Positions 31,313-47,133 of a stretch of 48,267 bases of DNA are shown piece by piece. The stretch is from an uncultured bacterium (lineage in GTDB: Bacteria; Planctomycetota; Brocadiia; Brocadiales; Scalinduaceae), in assembly GCA_913055705.1 (NCBI GenBank), contig CAJXKT010000002.1:1-48267 (forward strand). The letters are read 5' to 3'. Every line of letters begins with the position of its first letter. Position 1 is the stretch's first letter. The translations under genes and the position numbers were made by a program. The notes beneath the pieces are model-generated. The model did no database searches. It was given only the letters and a program-made list of their open reading frames with translations, and was not told the origin of the DNA.

Positions 31313-31595
31313 TACCGTTTAATCCTGTACTGGTATATGCAAAAAATATCATTAAAGAGTTGATTTTATCTTATGCTGTATAGTTCAAAGGGTTTGTTTA
31401 TATGTTCATTAACGAGCATAGTATTGTATATTTTAAAAATTGGTCTAATTATACTATTTTCAGAAAATAATGTTGTATAATTGCAGTTGAAATGTATACT
31501 GAAACTTTCTGCAATTTTGAAGACGTTAATAGGCAATGTATATGTGGTTATTTAATATTTATAAAAGCGAGAACAATTTTTTATATCATTTATGT

Positions 31596-33194
31596 ATGAA
31601 GTTCTCTAAGAAAATAGCAGTTTTAATGCTTATTATTTCTGCATTAGTTTTAGCTCAAGTGGCTTTTTCAGAAGCCGCATCTAAAGACAATGTAGATAGG
31701 TTTATTTCAATGCTGTCAGATGAGGATAAAGGCGTTAGGGAAAGTGCCGTCAGGGAACTTGGAAACCTTGAAGATCCTTCAGTCCTTGAGGCGTTGAATG
31801 ACTTATGGAATGAAGAGATGGAAGACGAGGTAGTTTTCGCCATAGAAATCGCGGTTAGTAAACTCCAGTTATTAGATATAGATAAAGCAGTGAGGATGAA
31901 TGGCGCAGAGGGATTGGGTGAAAAGGCTGGTACGCGTACTGCAGTGGATGCTACGGTAGGTGAGATAGAGGGAGCCTCTCTTTTTAAACAGCTCATGGTA
32001 GATGATCAGGAGATGATGGTTATCATTACCGTGCTGGAGAAGGCCTTGGCCATAGAAAAAGAGAAGAAAGTAAAAAAAGCGATTACTATAGCTATTCAGA
32101 GGTATAAACTATCAGACAGAGATTCGGATGTCCGTAAAAAAGCCGCTGAATTCTTTGGTGAACTGGCACATCCTGATACCGTTATGTTCTTAGGAAGGGC
32201 ATTGGAAAGTGAACAGGACGAAGAAGTAAGTGCTTTCATAAAAGATGCAGTAAGTAAGACAGAATGGAACGACCAGGTCGCTATTACACTCAAGCAGCTA
32301 TTTAACGGTATCACCATCAGCTCACAATATCTCCTTATTGCTCTTGGCCTTGCAATTACCTTTGGAGTAATGGGTGTCATTAATCTTGCCCATGGTGAGT
32401 TTCTGATGTTAGGGTGTTATGTTGCCCTGGTGGCACAGGGTATTTTTGCAAGTTTCTTTCAGCCTGTTTTAGGGCTCTATTGGGCACTGGCTATACCATT
32501 ATCTTTTATTTTTACAGCGGGTTTGGGATATGCGTTAGAACGTTCTGTTATTCGCTTCTTGTATAAACGACCTCTCGATACCCTGTTGGCGACATGGGGT
32601 GTCAGCCTGCTTCTTCAACAGGCGATAAGAAATTACTTTGGTGCTAATAATATTGATGTACCAAGTCCAAGCTGGCTTCTAGGGGGCGTTGAAGTCCTTG
32701 TCGGATTGTATTTGCCTTACAAGAGATTGTATATAATTGGTTTTACGATTTGTGTTGTTGCTGCCATATACTGGTTATTTTATCGAACTCGTTTTGGGTT
32801 AAAGATAAGGGCGGTAATGCAAAATCGCGAGATGGCAGATTGTTTGGGTATTTCCACCCAGAGAGTAAATGCCTTTACGTTTGCGCTGGGTTCAGGGTTG
32901 GCAGGCCTTGCTGGTTGTAATATGAGTTTATTAAGTTCTGTAGGTCCCACTACCGGCCAGAATTATATTGTAGATTGTTTCATGGTAGTAGTGCTGGGTG
33001 GTGTTGGTAAAATTGTTGGTACTATAGCAGGAGCATTTGGTTTGGGTGAAACCAATGCGATACTTGAATTTTTTACAACGGCAAATAAAGGCAAGGCTTT
33101 GACGTTTATCGCTGTTATTATATTTTTGCGTTTTAGACCAACGGGATTATCAGCATCAAAGGGGCGTGAAGACGTGAGGCTTGAAACGCATTAG
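31596..33194 (+). CDS. urtB: urea ABC transporter permease UrtB with periplasmic HEAT-like extension
   Basis: The 532-residue permease has a signal-type first span (about 1-25, MKFSKKIAVLMLIISALVLA). A ~210-residue extracytoplasmic segment follows, made of HEAT-like helical repeats (VDRFISMLSDEDKGVRESAVRELGNL split into two helices, and SDVRKKAAEFFGELAHPDTV). The LivH-type permease core (about 240-525) then has eight or so spans and the EAA-like loop region. The extension is known from many UrtB proteins. I chose the ATG at 31596 because it begins the signal sequence; an upstream ATG at 31536 adds 20 residues. Neither has a strong ribosome binding site. Confidence 0.9.
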   Translation: MKFSKKIAVLMLIISALVLAQVAFSEAASKDNVDRFISMLSDEDKGVRESAVRELGNLEDPSVLEALNDLWNEEMEDEVVFAIEIAVSKLQLLDIDKAVRMNGAEGLGEKAGTRTAVDATVGEIEGASLFKQLMVDDQEMMVIITVLEKALAIEKEKKVKKAITIAIQRYKLSDRDSDVRKKAAEFFGELAHPDTVMFLGRALESEQDEEVSAFIKDAVSKTEWNDQVAITLKQLFNGITISSQYLLIALGLAITFGVMGVINLAHGEFLMLGCYVALVAQGIFASFFQPVLGLYWALAIPLSFIFTAGLGYALERSVIRFLYKRPLDTLLATWGVSLLLQQAIRNYFGANNIDVPSPSWLLGGVEVLVGLYLPYKRLYIIGFTICVVAAIYWLFYRTRFGLKIRAVMQNREMADCLGISTQRVNAFTFALGSGLAGLAGCNMSLLSSVGPTTGQNYIVDCFMVVVLGGVGKIVGTIAGAFGLGETNAILEFFTTANKGKALTFIAVIIFLRFRPTGLSASKGREDVRLETH

Positions 33195-36005: not shown

Positions 36006-37748
36006 ATGGAAATACAAATTACTGCGGATACCTTGTGGGTTCTCATTGCAGCAGTACTCATTTTCCTGATGGGGTTGGGTTTTGCTTGTGTAGAAAGCGG
36101 TTTTACCCGTACCAAGAATTGCGTAAATGTTCTTTCAAAGAACTTTATAGTTGTTGCGGTGGCAACAATTGCATTCTGGTTTTTCGGCTTTGGACTTATG
36201 TTTGGTGATGGCAATCCCCTTTTTGGATTAAAAGGAGTTATGTTTATGAGTGGAGGGGATAATAGCCCTTCGACTGGAGATAATTATAAGGGAGTATATT
36301 CGGCACTTGGTTGGGTTGGTATTCCTTTAGCGGCAAAATTTTTCTTTCACATGAAATTTGCGATGGTTGCCGCAAGTATCATCTCTGGTGCTGTTGCGGA
36401 GCGTATTAAATACAGTGCGTTTATAATATTTTCATTCTTAATGGTTGCTTTCGTGTATCCGGTTGTTGGACATTGGGTTTGGGCTAATGGGTGGCTGGCT
36501 GCAAAAGGGATGTTTGATTTTGCCGGATCAACAGTTGTTCATTCAGTTGGAGGATGGGCGGCATTATCCGGTGTTCTGCTTTTAGGACCTCGTATGGGGA
36601 AATACAATCCGGACGGTTCCATTACAACAATCCCCGGACACAACATGCCCTTGGCATTAATTGGTGTATTTGCCTTGTGGATAGGCTGGTTTGGTTTTAA
36701 TGTTGGAAGTACAATGTCTGCCAATCCGGGATTAATTGCACACATAGCTCTTACTACAAATATGGGAGCATGTACTGGTATCCTGGGGGCTACAATGGCA
36801 TCCTGGATTATTTTAAGAAAACCCGGTTTAGGAATGACGCTTAACGGTTGTTTAGGTGGGCTTGTTGCTATAACCGCATCATGTGCAGTTGTGAGTGTTG
36901 CCAGCGCTGCCATTATAGGATTTATTGCAGGATGGTTAGTGGTATTATCAGTTATGTTCTTTGATAAAATGAGGATAGACGACCCTGCAGGGGCTTTGTC
37001 CGTACATCTGGTTAACGGTGTCTTTGGTACGTTATGTGTGGGGCTCTTTGCGGAGGGACAATATTTGCCTCAAAGCGTTGGAAATGGACTATTTTTTGGC
37101 GGAGGAGGTTCTTTGTTAGGTACACAGTTTATGGGTGTGTGGGCTGTTGCTTTGTTTGCTTTTCTATTTTCAGGCATTTTCTGGCTTATGCTGAAATATA
37201 CAATTGGAATTCGCGTTGATATCAGTACTGAATTAGAAGGTCTTGATATCGGAGAGCACAACAATGTAGCGTATCCCGATTTTGTAATTAGGCGAGCGGG
37301 TGATACATTCGTTTCTACGTCAAAAGTCTTGGTAGGCGGTGTGGCGGGCATTCCACAAGAAAAAACACCTCTGCCTATAAAGCTTATCCCGAAAGGTAGA
37401 TCCCCAGTTCAAAAAATCGAAGCTATTGTCCGTCCGGAAAGACTTCCGTTTGTAAAAAGTGCCCTGGAAGAAGCAGGTTGTCCTGGCATTACGATAGCTC
37501 AGATAGACGGTCATGGAATGGAAAAAGGTGTTACACAACAATGGAGAGGAGGACGGTACAAAGTAGACCTCCTGCCGAAGATGAAGATTGAGATTCTTGC
37601 CGAAAAAGCGGATGTTGATAAGTTTGTGAATGTAATTGTTCAGTCGGCTCAAACCGGTTCTTTTGGTGATGGACTGGTATTTGTTTGTGATACAAATGGT
37701 ATTATTAATATTAGAACTGGTGAAGAGGGTTCCTCCGAAATAGATTAA
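36006..37748 (+). CDS. amt: ammonium transporter fused to a C-terminal PII domain
   Basis: The 580-residue protein has an Amt channel (about 1-410, eleven spans). The twin pore histidines are in STVVHSVGGWAAL and LSVHLVNGVFGTL, and the vestibule region is SGAVAERIKYSAF. A linker follows, then a full PII (GlnB/GlnK) domain from about residue 468 to 580 (VQKIEAIVRPERL through NIRTGEE). The PII part aligns without gaps to E. coli GlnB. T-loop Tyr51 is kept (residue 518), but the ligand residues Arg38, Gln39, Lys90 and Arg101 are replaced by Met, Glu, Leu and Asn. Free PII normally blocks Amt by inserting its T-loop, so a tethered PII would be a built-in gate or sensor. It follows urtE and precedes the urease genes. 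Confidence 0.92.
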   Translation: MEIQITADTLWVLIAAVLIFLMGLGFACVESGFTRTKNCVNVLSKNFIVVAVATIAFWFFGFGLMFGDGNPLFGLKGVMFMSGGDNSPSTGDNYKGVYSALGWVGIPLAAKFFFHMKFAMVAASIISGAVAERIKYSAFIIFSFLMVAFVYPVVGHWVWANGWLAAKGMFDFAGSTVVHSVGGWAALSGVLLLGPRMGKYNPDGSITTIPGHNMPLALIGVFALWIGWFGFNVGSTMSANPGLIAHIALTTNMGACTGILGATMASWIILRKPGLGMTLNGCLGGLVAITASCAVVSVASAAIIGFIAGWLVVLSVMFFDKMRIDDPAGALSVHLVNGVFGTLCVGLFAEGQYLPQSVGNGLFFGGGGSLLGTQFMGVWAVALFAFLFSGIFWLMLKYTIGIRVDISTELEGLDIGEHNNVAYPDFVIRRAGDTFVSTSKVLVGGVAGIPQEKTPLPIKLIPKGRSPVQKIEAIVRPERLPFVKSALEEAGCPGITIAQIDGHGMEKGVTQQWRGGRYKVDLLPKMKIEILAEKADVDKFVNVIVQSAQTGSFGDGLVFVCDTNGIINIRTGEEGSSEID

Positions 37749-37772: not shown

Positions 37773-38963
37773 ATGAAGTTCTATACTATTTTGTACGTAG
37801 TGATAGTTAGTACATTTATTTCCAGTTGTGTTTTTTCTGATGATTTTCAATCCTACCATTTATTAAAAGAAAGTGGATCAGGTATAAGTAGCCATGATGT
37901 AAAATACGAAGAAAAAATTATAACCCAAGTAAAGAATTCAAAATCATTAGTAGAAAGCCAACCTGATATTTTCTTTGAAGAGCCAGTCTACAATTTTGGT
38001 AAAGTTTATAAAAATGTAGATGTGGAGCATTTCTTCATGTTTGAAAATCGTGGAACAGAAGATTTAATAATTGAAAACATAAAGGCTTCGTGTGGTTGTA
38101 TTGTATCTGAAGCAACTACATCTAAAGTGCTTCCGGGAATGTCTGAGGGTATTGTTGCGATCCTTAAAGGTATTCCTGATACAGGTGCCATATCCAAAAA
38201 CATAAAAATATATTCAAATGATCCGGACACCCCTGTTTACACTCTCAAACTGTCAGGAGAGATAATCGAAGATATTACAATAAATACGCGGCAGATAAGT
38301 TTTGGGTATGTTCCTAAGGGTAAAAAAGTAGAAGTGGGAATAGATGTCAAACCACGTCCTGGATTCAAATTAGAAATAAAAAATGTGATATCAACGAATT
38401 CTGATATTAGTATTAAGTACAAGAAAGATGAAAAGGAGAACGAACATGTTGTTGCGGCGACATTAAAAGATACTGCTACGGTTGGGGTTCTGACGGGTAA
38501 TATTCAAATACTTACAAATAGCGAGAGGCAAAACCGGGTGATTATTCCATTTTCTGGAGAGGTACTCGGAGATATTCGCATATACCCATCGCATTTATAT
38601 TTTGGCGTAATCAAGAAAGATAATAAATGTGTAAAATCGGTATTTATTACCTTGTTAAAAGAAAATATCAGGGTTGATAGAATTGAAGTCCAACCTGATT
38701 TTCTAACTTCAGAAATCATAACGGACCCTCGAATGAATATCGATGAAGAAGAATACGTAACCCTGCATTCAAACTTTTGGGAAGCTTCCACAGATTTTTC
38801 TCAAAAGAATATTCTTGAAAAAAAAGGCAGACCCCTTAGAATTCTAACCAGGATAAATGGAAATGCACCGGTTGGGGAAATAGAAGGCGTATTAAAGGTG
38901 TATACTAATAGTAAAATACAACCGATTATTAATATTCCGGTATCTGCCGAGATAATCGATTAA
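37773..38963 (+). CDS. lipoprotein with DUF1573-type Ig-like domains
   Basis: The 396-residue protein has a lipoprotein-type signal with cysteine near residue 19 (STFISSC). A DUF1573-like domain (about 67-170) follows, with EEPVYNFGKVYKNVDVEHFFMFENRG broken by a short turn, ASCGCIVSEA and LKGIPDTGAISKNIKIYSNDPDTP. Two further beta-sandwich repeats with the same 'FG.V..G..V' and 'TNS..QP.I.IPVSAEI' style run to the end. Planctomycetes carry many such surface or periplasmic proteins of unknown function. It lies 24 bases after amt and 39 before ureA, within the cluster, so a link to nitrogen use is possible but unproven. Confidence 0.8.
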   Translation: MKFYTILYVVIVSTFISSCVFSDDFQSYHLLKESGSGISSHDVKYEEKIITQVKNSKSLVESQPDIFFEEPVYNFGKVYKNVDVEHFFMFENRGTEDLIIENIKASCGCIVSEATTSKVLPGMSEGIVAILKGIPDTGAISKNIKIYSNDPDTPVYTLKLSGEIIEDITINTRQISFGYVPKGKKVEVGIDVKPRPGFKLEIKNVISTNSDISIKYKKDEKENEHVVAATLKDTATVGVLTGNIQILTNSERQNRVIIPFSGEVLGDIRIYPSHLYFGVIKKDNKCVKSVFITLLKENIRVDRIEVQPDFLTSEIITDPRMNIDEEEYVTLHSNFWEASTDFSQKNILEKKGRPLRILTRINGNAPVGEIEGVLKVYTNSKIQPIINIPVSAEIID

Positions 38964-39002: not shown

Positions 39003-39305
39003 ATGATGTTATCACCGCGTGAGATTGATAAGATGCTTATTTATTCTGTAGCAGATTTAGCCAGAAAGCGAATGTCACGTGGCTTGAAGCTGAACTATTC
39101 GGAAGCGATTGCGGTGATTACAGAGACTATTCTTGAGGGAGCAAGGGATGGTAACAGTGTTGCTGATTTAATGCAATTAGGGAAAAAGGTACTAAAGAGA
39201 GAAGATGTAATGCCCCGTGTGCCGGAGATGGTTCATCTGGTACAGGTAGAATGTACATTTCCTGATGGAACAAAACTAGTCTCCTGCCACGATCCTATTA
39301 TATAA
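39003..39305 (+). CDS. ureA: urease subunit gamma
   Basis: The 100-residue protein begins [22 protein letters not shown] after a possible extra Met and carries [21 protein letters not shown] and [14 protein letters not shown], all family hallmarks. It is the small gamma subunit of the nickel enzyme that hydrolyses urea to ammonium and carbonic acid. The separate gamma, beta and alpha genes are the usual bacterial arrangement. Two tandem ATG codons (39003, 39006) make the start ambiguous by one residue. Confidence 0.97.
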
Positions 39306-39393: not shown

Positions 39394-39765
39394 ATGAGTG
39401 AAACTGTTGAATATATTGTCGGACATGATCCAATAGAAATTAATGCTGGACGGGTTACTCTTGGAATGTCGGTAAGAAATACAGGAGATCGTCCAATTCA
39501 GGTAGGTTCTCACTTTCATTTTTTTGAGACTAACAAGGCGCTTGATTTTGACAGAAGAAAGTCATTTGGAATGAGGTTAAATATACCCGCAGGAACCTCT
39601 ATTCGCTTTGAGCCTGGCGACGAGAAGATGGTCGAGTTGGTTCAACTGGGGGGCAAAAGAGTGGTCATGGGATTAAACGGTTTGGTAAATGGAAGTACTT
39701 CTGAAAAGGGTGCATTGGAAGCTGCATTGAAAAAAGCAAAAGAATTGGGTTTCAAGGGTGCTTGA
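39394..39765 (+). CDS. ureB: urease subunit beta
   Basis: The 123-residue protein shows the beta-subunit core [29 protein letters not shown], written here as the [17 protein letters not shown] motif, then [23 protein letters not shown] and GFNG-like [15 protein letters not shown] ribosome binding site precedes the ATG. Its C-terminal extension (about 105-123) is slightly longer than minimal beta subunits. It lies 88 bases after ureA. Confidence 0.96.
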
Positions 39766-39805: not shown

Positions 39806-41521
39806 ATGGCAGATTTAACAAGAAAGCAATATGCGGATTTATACGGACCCTCGGTAGGTGATAAATTCAAGTTGGCAGATACTGAATTAGTATGTGAAAT
39901 AGAAAAAGATTATCGTGTGCCGGGCGAAGAAGTTGTTTTTGGCGGAGGAAAAACTATACGGGAAGGAATGGGACAAAGTACCCAAACCAATAAAAATGGA
40001 GCATTAGACCTTGTTATAACTAACGTAATTATTATTGATCCGGTCCAGGGAGTAGTAATAGGAGATGTTGGAGTCAAAGATGGTAAGATTACAGGTATAG
40101 GAAAGGCGGGTAATCCGGATATTATGAGCGGTGTTCACCCAGACCTTATTATAGGGCCTGGAACGGAAGTAATTGCAGGTGAGCATCTCATCGCAACTGC
40201 AGGTGGAATAGACAGTCATATCCACATGATATGTCCACAGCAGGTTTACGATGCTTTGTCAAATGGAATAACGACATTCATAGGCGGCGGAACAGGACCA
40301 GCCGATGGAACAAGGGCCACCACGTGTACTCCGGGCCCATGGAATATCCAGAAGATGATTCTGGCTTGTGAAGGGTTACCCATTAACTGGGGTTTTAAAG
40401 GAAAGGGAAACAGTGCTGTACCAGAACCGTTAATTGAACAATTAGAGGCAGGTGCCTGTGGACTAAAAGATCACGAAGACTGGGGTACAACACCTGCGGT
40501 ATTAGACCAGAGTTTATCAGTGGCCGATAAATATGATGTTCAAGTGTCAATTCATACTGACACATTGAATGAAGCAGGATTTGTGGAGGATTCATCTAAA
40601 GCCATCGATGGTAGAACAGTTCATACTTATCATACTGAGGGTGCGGGCGGAGGACATGCTCCAGATATTATGCGCCTGGCTGGCGAAAAGAATGTACTGC
40701 CATCATCAACAAATCCAACAAGACCTTACACAGTAAACACACTGGATGAACATCTCGATATGTTAATGGTCTGCCATCATCTTAACCCTTCAATTCCGGA
40801 GGATGTGTCCTTTGCAGAAAGTCGTATTCGTGCAGAGACAATAGCCGCAGAGGATGTGCTTCATGATCTTGGGATATTGAGCATGTATAGTTCAGATTCT
40901 CAGGCAATGGGAAGAGTTGGAGAAAATTTCATTAAGGCTATGCAAACTGCCGATAAGATGAAAAAGCAAAGGGGAAAGTTAGAAGAGGATGAACCGGGAA
41001 ATGACAACTTCAGGGTTCTTCGTTACATTGCCAAATGTAACTTGAATCATGCAATTACGGAAGGTTTTGAGCATATATTAGGTTCGATAGAAACCGGAAA
41101 AATGGCTGATATTGTTCTTTGGCCTATTGCCTTTTTTGGGGCAAAGCCAAAGATGGTGATTAAGGGTGGGTTCGTGAATTGGGCCTTAATGGGAGATTCA
41201 AATGCCTCCATTCCAACACCGGAGCCAGTCATTTATCGTCCGATGTTTGGGGCTTTCGGAGGCGCGATGCATGAGACAAAGCTGACTTTACTTTCAAAAA
41301 CAGCTGTGGAACTAGGTGTTCCTGAGAAAATTGGTATGCAGGGTGGATACGTTGCAGTTGAGAATTGTAGAGGGTTAACAAAAGCCCATATGGTAAGAAA
41401 TGATGTAGCTCCAAAAATAGAGATTGATCCTGAAACATATCAGGTAAAGATTGATGGAAATATTGCTACTTGTGAGCCGGCAAAAGAATTAGCGCTGACA
41501 CAGCTTTATTTTATGGTGTAA
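39806..41521 (+). CDS. ureC: urease subunit alpha (catalytic)
   Basis: The 571-residue catalytic subunit retains every active-site element. These are the nickel histidines in [11 protein letters not shown], the carbamylated lysine in [12 protein letters not shown], the histidines in [10 protein letters not shown] and [15 protein letters not shown], the mobile-flap motif MVCHHL and the nickel aspartate in [11 protein letters not shown]. The length is the normal ~570. It is therefore predicted fully active once UreDEFG insert nickel. An AAGAGG site precedes the ATG. Confidence 0.98.
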
Positions 41522-41537: not shown

Positions 41538-41870
41538 TTGAACATTAGACATGTAGTGGAGGCGTCAAACGTTGATGATAAAGGTTATGTGTTAGATTCC
41601 TCCGAGGTAAAGCACGGTGTTGTCAGAGCGGGTAAGATATGGTCCTTGTCTGGTTTTATTGATCCCAGAACTCATCTAAACCTTGATTTTGTGGATCATC
41701 GGGTAACCGGATGTATTATTGCAAGTAGATTTATTAAACATGCTCCTGTAGAAATAAAGCAGGATGGATTTGTTTTTGCACACGTTAAGGAAGAAAGTTG
41801 CAAACACCTTGGATTCGTAGATATTGATGCACGAAGGATTGAATGGATGAAAAGGTGCCAGGTAAAATGA
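41538..41870 (+). CDS. unrecognised 110-residue protein between ureC and ureE
   Basis: Translation starts at a TTG preceded by AAAGGAG at ideal spacing, 16 bases after ureC, so it is surely part of the operon. The protein is soluble with no signal peptide or membrane span. It appears beta-rich with a conserved-looking core (GIIASRF-like CIIASRFIKHAPVEIK, GFVFAHVKEESCKHLGFVDID). It has two cysteines and several histidines (H5, H26, H47, H54, H69, H82, H90) that could bind metal. I do not recognise a family. A 351-base gap follows before ureE. A urease accessory or assembly role is inferred from position only. Confidence 0.7.
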   Translation: MNIRHVVEASNVDDKGYVLDSSEVKHGVVRAGKIWSLSGFIDPRTHLNLDFVDHRVTGCIIASRFIKHAPVEIKQDGFVFAHVKEESCKHLGFVDIDARRIEWMKRCQVK

Positions 41871-42221: not shown

Positions 42222-42776
42222 ATGCTGATTATTAACGAAATATTGGGAAATATTAATACAGATGTGAAGTGGGAAAAACTTTATAGTGAGCCTGGTGGTA
42301 AAGGTTATGTACAAACTGTAATGTTTAAACGTAAAGAATCAGAAAGGTCCCGGTTGTATAAGAAATTGCCGGGATTTGACCAGGAGATAGGGATAAATCT
42401 CAAAAGGGGTGCCATATTGTGCGATGGAGATGTTCTATATTATGAAAAGGGTGAGAAGATGTTAGTGGTAAAGATTGAAGCAGAGGAGATGATGGTACTT
42501 CATTTTGCAGAAAAATTCCATGATGACAAGATGCTTGAGTTAGCCGTTAAGTTGGGACATGCGATTGGTAATCAACACTGGCAAATAAAGGTTGCTGGAG
42601 GAAAGATATATGTTCCGATAGTGATCGACAAAAAAGTAATGGAATCAGTCATGAAAACGCATAATATTCAAGGCGTAAAATATTGTTTTGAGGAAGTGGT
42701 GGAGGAACAGATATCTGATAGGAAGTCTGGGTTCTCTCACGACTCGTTACATGGCCACCATCAGCACAAACATTAA
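42222..42776 (+). CDS. ureE: urease accessory protein UreE (nickel metallochaperone)
   Basis: The 184-residue protein has the N-terminal peptide-binding domain with LKRGAILCDGDVLYYEKGEKMLVV. The C-terminal metal-binding domain contains LGHAIGNQHWQIKV and KIYVPIVIDKKVMESVM. The tail ends SHDSLHGHHQHKH, a short histidine-rich nickel-binding stretch. UreE delivers nickel to the UreDFG-urease complex. Confidence 0.93.
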   Translation: MLIINEILGNINTDVKWEKLYSEPGGKGYVQTVMFKRKESERSRLYKKLPGFDQEIGINLKRGAILCDGDVLYYEKGEKMLVVKIEAEEMMVLHFAEKFHDDKMLELAVKLGHAIGNQHWQIKVAGGKIYVPIVIDKKVMESVMKTHNIQGVKYCFEEVVEEQISDRKSGFSHDSLHGHHQHKH

Positions 42777-42787
42777 GGAAAGGATAC

Positions 42788-43534
42788 TTGGTAGTGAGTA
42801 ATAATGGCAATGAAATACCGTTAAGATGTGATGTGCCTGAATCCCGTTTAAGATCTTTTGCAAATGCACTTCAGATATCTGATACATTCTTTCCAGTGGG
42901 CATGTTTAACTTCTCTCATGGTTTGGAATCGTATGTTCAGGAGGAGATGGTGAAGAATGCAGATGATATTTTCGTTTTACTTGATGACATTCTTTCCCAT
43001 CAAATTGCTCCTGCTGATTGTGTTGCATTGGCCAACGGTTACAGGGCGGCTGAACAGTCTGATTTAAATACCATTTTGTTGCTAGATGAAATGCTTTATG
43101 CTATGAAGCTATCATTTGAAAACAGGGAATGTTCTGTGAAGACAGGGAAGTGCCTACTGACTAATATCCTTTTAATAGCTCCAGATAACTTAATCATACG
43201 TGATTTTAACGAAAAAGTCTGTGCGGGGGCCAGTCCTGGAAACTATGCAGTTGTATTAGGTTTAAGCGGGTATTTACTGGAGATAGCGTGCACTGAGGTG
43301 ATGATGATAGAGCTGTATTCATTTTGTGTTAGTTTTGTTAGTGCGGCAATGAAGCTTGTTAAAATTGATCACTATACGGCAGTAAAGATAATCAATGATC
43401 TGCAACCTTTATTAGTTGATCTTATAAAAAAGCATATACATAAAGTACCGGACGAAATGTATTCCTGCGCACCTTTAGTAGATATTATGTCCATAAGGCA
43501 TGAACAGGCAACTGTCCGAATGTTTTTGAGCTGA
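42788..43534 (+). CDS. ureF: urease accessory protein UreF
   Basis: The ~248-residue all-helical protein has LQISDTFFPVGMFNFSHGLESYVQE, given here as ISDTFFPVGMFNFSHGLES, the UreF hallmark. Later helices include ASPGNYAVVLGLSGYLLEI and the C-terminal PLVDIMSIRHEQATVRMFLS, both typical. It bridges UreD and UreG during nickel insertion. The start is a TTG at 42788 after AAAGGA; a GTG at 42794 is an alternative. It begins 11 bases after ureE. Confidence 0.93.
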   Translation: MVVSNNGNEIPLRCDVPESRLRSFANALQISDTFFPVGMFNFSHGLESYVQEEMVKNADDIFVLLDDILSHQIAPADCVALANGYRAAEQSDLNTILLLDEMLYAMKLSFENRECSVKTGKCLLTNILLIAPDNLIIRDFNEKVCAGASPGNYAVVLGLSGYLLEIACTEVMMIELYSFCVSFVSAAMKLVKIDHYTAVKIINDLQPLLVDLIKKHIHKVPDEMYSCAPLVDIMSIRHEQATVRMFLS

Positions 43535-43659: not shown

Positions 43660-44280
43660 ATGGAAAACAAGATTCCACGAGTTGGGGTGGGAGGACCTGT
43701 CGGTTCAGGCAAAACAGCACTTATTGAAGCGGTAGTACCTGTATTGGTGAAGAATGGATACGATCCAATTATCCTGACCAATGATATTGTTACAAAGGAA
43801 GATGCTGAACATGTAAAGGGAACGCTACAGGATGTTATTTCGACTGATCGTGTTCTGGGTGTTGAGACAGGAGGGTGCCCTCATACAGCTGTGAGAGAGG
43901 ATCCGAGTATGAATCTGATTGCCGTAGAGGAAATGGAAAAGAAGTTCCCGGATTCTCATATACTTTTTGTTGAAACTGGAGGGGACAATCTGACACTCAC
44001 ATTCAATTCCGCGTTAGTAGATTATTACATTTATGTGATTGATGTGGCTGCTGGCGAAAAGATTCCCCGCAAAAATGGCCCTGCTATTACCCAATCTGAT
44101 CTACTGATTATTAATAAGATTGATCTGGCTTCATTTGTAAATGCTGATTTAAAAATAATGGAGCGTGATACTAAGTTAATGAGAAAAGACAAACCTTTTA
44201 TCTTTACTAATTGTCATACCAAAGAAGGAATAGACGCTGTATACCAGTTAATAAAAAAAGAGGTACTATTTGAAGATTAA
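43660..44280 (+). CDS. ureG: urease accessory GTPase UreG
   Basis: The 206-residue SIMIBI GTPase has the P-loop GGPVGSGKTALIEA (about 9-22), ILTNDIVTKEDAEHVK, the metal-binding CPH motif in ETGGCPHTAVREDPS and the guanine-specificity motif INKIDLA. GTP hydrolysis by UreG drives nickel insertion. An AAAGGAG site precedes the ATG. It follows ureF by 125 bases. Confidence 0.97.
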   Translation: MENKIPRVGVGGPVGSGKTALIEAVVPVLVKNGYDPIILTNDIVTKEDAEHVKGTLQDVISTDRVLGVETGGCPHTAVREDPSMNLIAVEEMEKKFPDSHILFVETGGDNLTLTFNSALVDYYIYVIDVAAGEKIPRKNGPAITQSDLLIINKIDLASFVNADLKIMERDTKLMRKDKPFIFTNCHTKEGIDAVYQLIKKEVLFED

Positions 44281-44292
44281 TATTCACATAAA

Positions 44293-45231
44293 ATGCTAAA
44301 ACATAGCGTTGTTGATTCGCACGATTACTATACTCCTGTAAATATTCCATCAGAATTTAGCCAGTATGATCTGGAAGTTCCAGTACTCAATATTGGCAAT
44401 GCAGGTAAAGTCGGATTGCTGGCCTTGGCCCTGGAAAATAGAGAGGGAAAGACGACACTTGTAGAGAATTATCATAAGGTTCCATTACAAGTTCAAAAAG
44501 CTCTTTATATTGATGAGAATATGCCTCATATGCCTTATATATATATTATGAGCCCGAGTGGTGGAATACTGCAGGGTGATAGGCTGAGGATAGACATACA
44601 TGGCTATGAGGACACAACTTTTCACATTACGACCCAGGCTGCAACTAAGATTTACCGTATGGAGAAGAATTATGCAACTCAGGTTTTGAATATTACCCTG
44701 GATAAGGGATCATATGCAGAATTTTTACCTGATATGATTATACCTTATAGAGATTCTCGCTTTTATCAAGAAGTTAATCTAAAAATTCACGAGGATGCAA
44801 CCTGTCTTTATAGTGAAATATTGCTGCCGGGACGTGTAACTTATGGAGAGTCATTTCTCTATGGAATATTTTATTCGCGTTTTCAGGCAACTGATCTATC
44901 GGGAAATTATAGATGTTTAGATAATATGGTTTTTTCGCCAAAGGCAAGTAATCCCAGGTCGTGTGGTATTCTGGATAATTGGGAGATTGTCGCGAACATT
45001 TATTTGCTAACCAGGAAAGTAGAAAGTAAAATGTTGAATACCGAAATAGAAAGAGCTGTACAAAAGGCTGATAATATATATTTGGCGTCCACGGTACTTC
45101 CTCATTCGGATGGCATTATTATCCGAATATTGGGTAGAAAATCAAATGATGTTGAACTTGTTTGCAAGCAAATATGGAATATTATCCGAATGAAATTACA
45201 TGGAAAGCCTGCCCCAGACTTAAGGAAATAA
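44293..45231 (+). CDS. ureD: urease accessory protein UreD
   Basis: The 312-residue protein has the UreD blocks MSPSGGILQGDRLRIDI, THITTQAATKIYRME-like FHITTQAATKIYRME, YAEFLPDMIIPYRDSRFYQE and EILLPGRVTYGESFLYG. It binds urease directly and is thought to channel nickel. It starts 12 bases after ureG. All four accessory proteins (D, E, F, G) are therefore present; no ureJ/hupE nickel permease is seen in the window. Confidence 0.94.
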   Translation: MLKHSVVDSHDYYTPVNIPSEFSQYDLEVPVLNIGNAGKVGLLALALENREGKTTLVENYHKVPLQVQKALYIDENMPHMPYIYIMSPSGGILQGDRLRIDIHGYEDTTFHITTQAATKIYRMEKNYATQVLNITLDKGSYAEFLPDMIIPYRDSRFYQEVNLKIHEDATCLYSEILLPGRVTYGESFLYGIFYSRFQATDLSGNYRCLDNMVFSPKASNPRSCGILDNWEIVANIYLLTRKVESKMLNTEIERAVQKADNIYLASTVLPHSDGIIIRILGRKSNDVELVCKQIWNIIRMKLHGKPAPDLRK

Positions 45232-45272: not shown

Positions 45273-46844
45273 ATGACAGAACAGAACCCAGGTAATATAC
45301 AGGCACAAGGAGCAGAAAATGCTGCCCTCGAAAATAATTGCGCTGCAGTTTTGTCTGTAGCTGATACTGTACGGACTACACTAGGGCCAAAAGGATTGGA
45401 CAAATTACTCGTGGATGAATTAGGTAACCGTTTTATTACAAACGATGGTGCAACAATAATGCTATCGATCAAAACGGTTCATCCTGTGGCAAAATTGGTT
45501 GTTGAAATTGCAGACAGGCAAGAAACGAAGGTGGGAGATGGCACGACCACTGCCGTTGTATTGGCTGCAGAAATGATAAAGGAGGGCAAAAGACTGATTG
45601 CTGATGTGGGCATTCATCCTACATTGGTTGTGAGTGGTATAGAGCTGGGGATTCAACGTTCTATTGAGCTTTTCAAACAGAAGGCTGTAAAGATTAACAT
45701 GAAAGATGCTAGTCTTGCTCAAGTGATTTCAACGGCAGCCGGAAGTAGAATGGATGGAAACCAGGTTGTCTCTTTGGTTAGTGAAGCCCTTAACATTCTT
45801 AAAAATCCAAAGGAAAAAAAGGAAATGGTGGATTTGAAAAAAAGTATATTTCTAATTAATAACCCTGTGCTGGAAGACATGGTTTTTGATGGAATAGTTA
45901 TTCAAAGGCAGTTCTTTGATCAACAGATACCTGATAAGATGGAAAATGTTAAGGCGATTCTTCTTAAAATAGACTTGAAGGAGATTAAAGAATCATTGGT
46001 CAAAGAGGTGAGAAACTATGACGAAATCGTGCGGATGAAAGAAAGTCAAACAAAAGTGACAAAAGAGATTTCTGATAGCATCTGTAAGACTGGTGCAGGT
46101 ATTGTATTTGTATCTTCTGTCCATGCGGATGAACAACTCTTATCCAACCTTCTTGAAAAGAATATTATGCTGATACATGTTTCTAACGAAGAACTTCTTA
46201 ATATTGCAAATGCTTTAGACGTACAAGTGGTCAGGAGAAAAGAGGATATGGGGAAAATCTCAGCTGGTACTTTTAAGAGTGTATACTACGATGAAGAGAA
46301 AGGGTTATTCTTCTTAGAGAATCATGGACAGCGAAAAATGGTGACGATTATTATCAGTGGTGTTACAAAAGTGACATCTCAGGAGCGATGGCGTGCTGTG
46401 AAGGATGGTATTTCAGCAGCGCAGTCTGCTTTGACTGAGGGTATTGTTGCAGGAGGGGGAGCAGTAGAGCTTTACATCAGTGAGAGATTGAAAGAGGAAA
46501 ACTTGAATAGTGGAGTAGATTCTATGGGTATTGAAGTGGTTGCACATGCCCTTTCCAGTATTATGCGTCAAATACTTACAAATGCAGGCTTCAATGGTTC
46601 CGAAAAAATGGCTGAGATCAAAAATAAATCCGGAGAATATGGCATTGATATTAATACGGGGAAGGAAGAAAACATGTTTGAGGCCGGCGTTGTTGATTCA
46701 GCAGGGATTAAGATTAATGCCCTAAAATCGGCGGCTGAAATTGTCAAGGCTGTTTTACGTATTGACCGTATATTAATTGCCCATTCCCCACATAATGCAG
46801 TTGTCGGAAAGTCTTCAAACGAAACAATCCTCAAAGATAAATAA
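45273..46844 (+). CDS. group II/III (thermosome-like) chaperonin
   Basis: The 523-residue protein is an archaeal/eukaryotic-type chaperonin rather than GroEL. Motifs are TLGPKGLDKLLVDELG (about 36-51), ITNDGATI (about 55-62), HPVAKLVVE and GDGTTTAVVLA (about 88-98, ATP site). A group II-like apical domain (about 200-370), VAGGGAVELYISERL (about 395-410) and the C-terminal SAAEIVKAVLRIDRIL follow. The catalytic Asp near residue 385 (VKDGISAA) is kept. The EGIVAGGG wording is GroEL-like, and the tail lacks GGM repeats. Bacterial homologues (Carboxydothermus and relatives) are called group III and usually sit near dnaK. Here it starts 41 bases after ureD, as the apparent last gene of the urease operon. 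Confidence 0.9.
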   Translation: MTEQNPGNIQAQGAENAALENNCAAVLSVADTVRTTLGPKGLDKLLVDELGNRFITNDGATIMLSIKTVHPVAKLVVEIADRQETKVGDGTTTAVVLAAEMIKEGKRLIADVGIHPTLVVSGIELGIQRSIELFKQKAVKINMKDASLAQVISTAAGSRMDGNQVVSLVSEALNILKNPKEKKEMVDLKKSIFLINNPVLEDMVFDGIVIQRQFFDQQIPDKMENVKAILLKIDLKEIKESLVKEVRNYDEIVRMKESQTKVTKEISDSICKTGAGIVFVSSVHADEQLLSNLLEKNIMLIHVSNEELLNIANALDVQVVRRKEDMGKISAGTFKSVYYDEEKGLFFLENHGQRKMVTIIISGVTKVTSQERWRAVKDGISAAQSALTEGIVAGGGAVELYISERLKEENLNSGVDSMGIEVVAHALSSIMRQILTNAGFNGSEKMAEIKNKSGEYGIDINTGKEENMFEAGVVDSAGIKINALKSAAEIVKAVLRIDRILIAHSPHNAVVGKSSNETILKDK

Positions 46845-46934
46845 TAGAGATTTCATTATTTGGTATGTTATTTAACTTATGCTATTAGTTATAGAAGCTA
46901 AATACGCACTTCCTTCCCAATCTGCATATTATTC

Positions 46935-47069
46935 CAGGAAAAAGAAACTATTGAGAAAATAAGTAAGAGTGAAATAAAGATAGGAATTGAGGCTCCAGGG
47001 GACGTAACCATTAACAGAGAAGAAGTTCCGAAGGAAGATTTCATGACACAAGCAGGCAATAGAGATTGA
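46935..47069 (+). pseudogene. CsrA-like remnant
   Basis: In one frame the peptide KETIEKISKSEIKIGIEA followed by PGDVTINREEV strongly resembles the RNA regulator CsrA. In CsrA, a 'GE.I.IG' start is followed by 'VRIGIEAP.DV.V.REEV'. The start codon, the first strand and about ten residues before ISKSEIKIGIEAP are missing, and the frame ends soon after in unrelated sequence. It is therefore a truncated, internally deleted copy, not a working gene. It directly abuts a TPR remnant. Confidence 0.5.
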
Positions 47070-47133
47070 CCCTGATTTTGCAGAGGCTCATTATAATCTC
47101 GGTGTTGCCCATACAAGAAAGGAAGATAAAGGT
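47050..47133 (+). pseudogene. single tetratricopeptide-repeat remnant
   Basis: In a frame different from the CsrA remnant, KQAIEIDPDFAEAHYNLG followed by VAHTRKEDKG is a textbook TPR unit, but it starts after a stop codon and runs straight into the next gene's start. It is the debris of a larger TPR protein, disrupted at the point where the flavoprotein gene begins. Confidence 0.6.

Follow-up and report, generated by a model that had tools for sequence, protein, structure and literature searches.

A lid-bearing chaperonin encoded with urease genes in anammox bacteria and ammonia-oxidising archaea (AOA)

The chaperonin gene cpn, found in a urease operon on a 48,267-nucleotide stretch of anammox planctomycete DNA (the window), is genetically linked to urease genes in both Bacteria and Archaea, with the small gene ureX as a constant companion. 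It encodes a lid-bearing chaperonin subunit of the group II/III type with conserved ATPase residues. Judged by its sequence and gene neighbourhoods, it is probably a dedicated, ATP-driven urease-assembly chaperonin.

Results

The urease operon and its last gene

The operon genes were called with family models and ureX by synteny, which gave the order ureABC-X-EFGD-cpn (Table 1). The placement of cpn as the final gene of the operon, made in the preliminary description, was thus confirmed, as was the gap of 41 bp separating it from ureD on a common strand. No terminator-like sites were detected between ureD and cpn in a sequence scan, and promoter-like sites occurred there at chance level only. 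The genes for an ammonium transporter and a DUF1573 protein upstream of ureA kept their positions in the corresponding loci L037 and L038.

Table 1. Features of the window and of archaeal urease loci
Feature	Coordinates	Strand	Basis or remark
Ammonium transporter fused to C-terminal P-II domain	36006..37748	+	upstream; position kept in L037, L038
DUF1573 protein between amt and ureA	37773..38963	+	upstream; position kept in L037, L038
ureA, urease gamma	39003..39305	+	NCBIfam PRK13241, over cut-off
ureB, urease beta	39394..39765	+	NCBIfam PRK13203, over cut-off
ureC, urease alpha, catalytic	39806..41521	+	TIGR01792, over cut-off; 92% to L037
ureX, 110-aa companion of cpn	41538..41870	+	alignment with AOA homologues; synteny
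ureE, His-rich C-terminus (GFSHDSLHGHHQHKH)	42222..42776	+	UreE_C over Pfam cut-off; tail read from sequence
ureF	42788..43534	+	Pfam UreF, 101 bits
ureG, GTPase	43660..44280	+	TIGR00101, over cut-off
ureD	44293..45231	+	Pfam UreD, 157 bits
cpn, urease-linked chaperonin with lid	45273..46844	+	523 aa, ATG start, no GGM tail
His-tailed paralogue in AOA urease loci L112-L151, e.g. L124	12596-14305	+
His-tailed paralogue, e.g. L112	5758-7497	-

Downstream of cpn (window 46845-47070), an SSS-type transporter gene was broken after 18 codons at ~46932, and the window past this point contained unrelated coding remnants, one of them CsrA-like by eye. A contig filed under a Neomarinimicrobiota MAG (L036, PBZW01000045.1) matched the window at 99% identity along 8.2 kb and departed from it at the identical base (~46932), which marks either an assembly junction or a real rearrangement; L036 is probably a misbinned anammox contig. 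Positions 31536-33194 of the window encoded a UrtB-like permease of the branched-chain type whose N-terminus contained HEAT repeats.

Identity of the chaperonin

The reading frame of cpn is intact, and its product matched Pfam Cpn60_TCP1 with 347 bits. Among the NCBIfam models, those of thermosomes scored best (~280 bits, with ~169 for the GroEL models), all of these scores being under the curated cut-offs. The motifs GDGTT, NDGAT and HPVAKLVVE, previously noticed as marks of a group II/III chaperonin, were all found in the protein, and reading and alignment of the C-terminus bore out the lack of a GGM tail. The EGIVAGGG segment, proposed earlier as a GroEL-like mark, turned out not to be GroEL-specific, as group III chaperonins have SGVLPGGG at the equivalent place. 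The retained ATPase residues comprised LGPKG, NDGAT, GDGTT and the Asp that corresponds to D393 of KS-1. The lid segment aligned with the KS-1 lid and was two residues shorter, whereas GroEL had a gap there. A weak AlphaFold model (pLDDT 54.7) contained helices 235-244 and 249-272 in the lid region, and the best Foldseek match of this low-confidence model was the group II chaperonin of M. maripaludis.

The built-in lid, NDGAT, GDGTT and the best NCBIfam and Foldseek matches liken cpn to the group II (archaeal thermosome) chaperonins, from which it differs in the absent GGM tail, in its position outside the sampled thermosome clade and in a nucleotide-sensing loop ~3 residues shorter (loop biology after PMC5635000). 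The position of the group II Lys165 is occupied by Arg in the anammox proteins and by Lys in the AOA members. With the Firmicutes group III chaperonin of C. hydrogenoformans (5X9U/5X9V, PMC5635000) cpn shares an archaeal-like character in a bacterial host, the lid, the Arg at the gamma-phosphate-sensing position and an xGVLPGGG-like stretch that lacks the extra residue of group II. The loop deletion of cpn is, however, only intermediate, and in place of the dnaK operon regarded as typical of group III (PMC5635000), the gene resides in a urease operon in 5/5 anammox genomes. The protein cannot be called a canonical thermosome, nor is it a clear member of group III.

In chaperonin trees, which were limited by long stems, left out CCT and included one natural group III sequence, the urease chaperonins grouped into a single clade (100/100), its anammox and AOA halves being reciprocally monophyletic. 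The phylogeny proposed in the preliminary description as a check placed cpn outside GroEL, the GroEL branch splitting off at 100/100, and cpn as an ordinary GroEL was rejected. The origin of cpn by duplication of an AOA thermosome was rejected as well, since it fell outside the 100/100 clade of sampled archaeal thermosomes. The best tree joined the urease-chaperonin clade to thermosomes (94/81), and the grouping of cpn with the single natural group III sequence, from C. hydrogenoformans, was not rejected (AU p=0.215).

Relatives in anammox genomes

Among 62 genomes of the order searched, orthologues of 74-87% identity were present in four others (G057, G059, G044 and G019; loci L007-L010), G059 being the Scalindua sediminis contig (L037) and G019 a Brocadia sp. 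(L038). In 4/4 of these genomes cpn directly followed ureD. A survey of neighbourhoods in related genomes had been suggested beforehand, and the homologues indeed adjoined urease genes, both here and in AOA clusters. Complete urease clusters with cpn were carried by G059 and G019. The G044 assembly contained cpn but no ureABC, its contig ending in ureF, and neither ureABC nor ureX was found in the G057 assembly. In the latter, ureEFGD-cpn came right after an unrelated gene, for a 605-aa NO-reductase-like membrane protein (L076, G057:C15:1-12000). An anammox ureABC of a different lineage, without cpn, was noted in G020 (L075, G020:C147:9000-24000). The end of its ureC was disrupted and accessory genes were absent nearby, so this possibly decaying locus is unsuitable as a cpn-less control.

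In all four orthologue-bearing genomes a sodium:solute-symporter-like gene lay directly 3' of cpn, which would fit a chaperonin serving another product of the cluster, such as the SSS-type transporter or UreX. This is highly improbable: membrane transporters are poor chaperonin clients, and in the window cpn is intact beside a broken transporter gene, even if that junction may be a misassembly.

Relatives in AOA genomes

A scan of genome contigs with the cpn protein sequence alone returned 29 loci, of which all but three close ones lay on AOA or AOA-like contigs (40-48% identity; AOA loci L039-L064). Where enough flank was available, the order was ureA-B-C-cpn-ureX-E-F-G-D, with the exception of L062 (JASHSN010000037.1), a contig of a Nitrososphaeraceae MAG that ends inside a type-1 cpn and whose 2.4 kb upstream of that gene contain no ureC. 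Orthologues adjacent to ureD in four more anammox genomes and homologues in AOA urease clusters argue that the linkage is not due to chance. The position of cpn differs, being last in anammox and after ureC in AOA, but the set of genes is kept, which argues against a frozen neighbourhood. The survey of bacteria was incomplete: the query of the contig scan consisted of short peptide patterns taken from a single protein, and the whole-genome samples comprised Planctomycetota, Nitrospirota and the AOA phylum only.

In the AOA order sample, a strong ureC match was observed in 86/260 genomes, and 22/80 fetched AOA urease loci had the complete type-1 order. UreX and type-1 cpn co-occurred in these loci, the exceptions being short contigs, of which L148 and L157 end inside cpn and L175, itself rearranged or broken, carries UreX. 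The AOA with a type-1 cpn possessed canonical thermosomes too.

An Hsp60 homologue (arCOG01257) was described in 2018 in the urease loci of Nitrosocaldus and Nitrososphaerales, with a proposed urease-stabilising role; no such homologue was reported for Nitrosopumilales (PMC5797428). The type-1 clusters found here match that description. The window cpn resembles the AOA Hsp60 in its location in a urease cluster, in the common 100/100 clade and in the role proposed; unlike it, the window gene is bacterial and stands last rather than after ureC, and the two proteins are 44-48% identical.

The companion protein UreX

The AOA homologues of UreX showed 42-49% identity and adjoined cpn. In their alignment with the window protein the residues R4, H5, E8, N11, D20, H26, D42, H46, N48, D50, H54 and C59 were invariant. 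UreX had no confident match in Pfam and none in NCBIfam, and its modelled fold (pLDDT 74.6) had no match in the PDB.

UreX was encoded in 3/392 Planctomycetota genomes, all three of them anammox with cpn, in 9/398 genomes of the AOA phylum, in 42/260 of the AOA order (35 of the 42 being ureC-positive) and in 1/256 Nitrospirota genomes. The 'Nitrospirae' MAG contig L055 (VBOG01000040.1) carried an AOA urease cluster and is probably misbinned because its cpn was 98% identical to that of Nitrososphaeraceae L054. Within the searched sets UreX is confined to AOA and anammox, bar one likely misbinned contig. No UreX was found in virus and plasmid sequences. Chaperonin relatives with 25-47% identity were seen on IMG/VR contigs (L240-L258).

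A second, His-tailed chaperonin beside other AOA ureases

The other AOA ureases, those without UreX, often had a different, divergent thermosome paralogue beside them, scoring ~490 bits against PF00118 in comparison with ~630 for canonical thermosomes. Its C-terminus is a conserved His-rich tail (THTHxDGTxHSHxGGxKxHDHFDxLGKxQRPxHHYY), plausibly a candidate set of nickel or zinc ligands. In many genomes the gene and ureC were 2.5-6.7 kb apart; in others the distance was greater or the two lay on different contigs. The paralogue was detected in 54/260 AOA-order genomes, 45 of the 54 being ureC-positive, with 41 ureC-positive genomes without the tail; the association of tail and ureC gave a Fisher p=7e-18, overstated since species are non-independent. 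A shared origin of the window-type cpn and the His-tailed paralogue was rejected (AU p=1.8e-5). The association of a separate second chaperonin with urease points to repeated recruitment.

Eighteen ureC-positive genomes of the AOA order sample had neither UreX nor the His tail. Contig-truncated cases among them include G920 and G965, and at least nine urease-positive AOA had ordinary thermosomes only (G985, G989, G506, G538, G586, G616, G735, G810 and G982). As several urease-positive AOA do without either chaperonin, such a partner is not obligatory.

The His-rich tail of this unrelated chaperonin and the invariant His, Asp and Cys positions of UreX would also suit a cpn whose main task is not polypeptide folding but the storage or insertion of nickel, with UreX binding metal as its partner. 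This is quite unlikely, as the window cpn contains just 8 His among its 523 residues and lacks a His tail, metal binding by cpn or UreX is putative, and a His-tailed UreE is already encoded in the operon.

History of the chaperonin and of the enzyme

The UreC and UreG trees placed the AOA type-1 ureases with the AOA type-2 ureases. A joint clade of anammox and AOA type-1 sequences was rejected for both UreC (p=0.005) and UreG (p=0.002, AU tests), which leaves a transfer of the whole cluster between AOA and anammox unsupported; for UreD the same clade gave AU p=0.145. These trees were quick and had few outgroups. A careful UreC tree also rejected the joint clade (p=0.002), with three type-1 rows only. 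Accordingly, the window UreC and UreG do not group as sisters of those in the AOA Hsp60 system, and the chaperonin and UreX appear to have a history apart from the enzyme and to have moved separately from it.

Discussion

That cpn serves urease, as suggested in the preliminary description, is the most economical reading, supported by its non-GroEL position in the trees and by homologues beside urease genes. It may act in the folding or nickel-loading of UreC. Like the chaperonins of groups II and III, it would assemble as an eight-fold double ring closed by the built-in lid, and, driven by ATP, it would enclose a freshly synthesised urease subunit. The likeliest client would be UreC, a metal-dependent TIM barrel of ~61 kDa, which cpn may hold in a foldable, assembly-competent state until UreAB joins; nickel would then be inserted by UreDFG with UreE. 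UreX, with its invariant His, Asp and Cys, is proposed to bring the client or the metal to cpn. General folding would be left to the four ordinary GroELs of the cell. Against a dedicated chaperonin speaks the fact that most bacterial ureases have no such partner.

The client-binding part of the protein bears on this proposal. The window and AOA chaperonins were 64% identical in the N-terminal equatorial part and 30% identical in the apical domain, whereas the apical domain of an AOA generalist thermosome was 66% identical to those of other archaeal thermosomes, which fits specialisation of the part that binds clients. Such fast apical divergence is hard to reconcile with a general or stress chaperonin merely co-regulated with urease (under ammonia and pH stress from ureolysis) and having other main clients. 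The conserved ATPase machinery, the usual promiscuity of chaperonins and the L062 contig, with no urease genes in its visible flank, would agree with such a role. It is nevertheless unlikely, given that the genome already encodes four GroELs, that cpn-bearing AOA own canonical thermosomes and that urease clusters house nearly all members of the clade.

The dedicated urease-assembly role leaves room for a broader, tentative picture. Prokaryotes may possess client-dedicated chaperonins: those devoted to urease would constitute a deep lineage that belongs to neither canonical group I nor canonical group II and that travelled, together with UreX, as one unit between archaea of the nitrogen cycle and anammox bacteria. 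The AOA may have separately evolved the His-tailed thermosome for the same job, possibly loading nickel inside the folding chamber.

The linkage of a chaperonin to urease is of a known kind, having been published for AOA; in the parts of that account consulted, ureX is not treated (PMC5797428). The same paper cites a Haemophilus influenzae GroEL located close to urease and a urease-associated Hsp60 of Helicobacter pylori; those are group I chaperonins without a lid, unlike the lid-bearing window cpn of unrelated origin. Apparently new are the anammox members, the conserved companion UreX, the 100/100 clade outside GroEL and the sampled thermosomes, its discordance with the UreC and UreG trees, and the independently derived His-tailed AOA thermosome paralogue beside or near other ureases. 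Literature searches returned no paper on an anammox urease chaperonin or on a His-tailed thermosome with urease. Two papers on anammox urease (PMC7768721, PMC11104535) concluded on the basis of UreC that its origin is separate and, in the text searched, made no mention of a chaperonin. The presence of cpn and UreX in both AOA and anammox qualifies this UreC-based picture.

Chaperonins are regarded as generalists. If the proposed role is true, a chaperonin gene kept in the operon of one enzyme across two domains, together with a second case that arose independently, would open client specialisation to direct tests. Urease maturation, for which UreDEFG alone are usually described, would also gain a step in hosts that convert urea to ammonium in the marine and soil nitrogen cycles.
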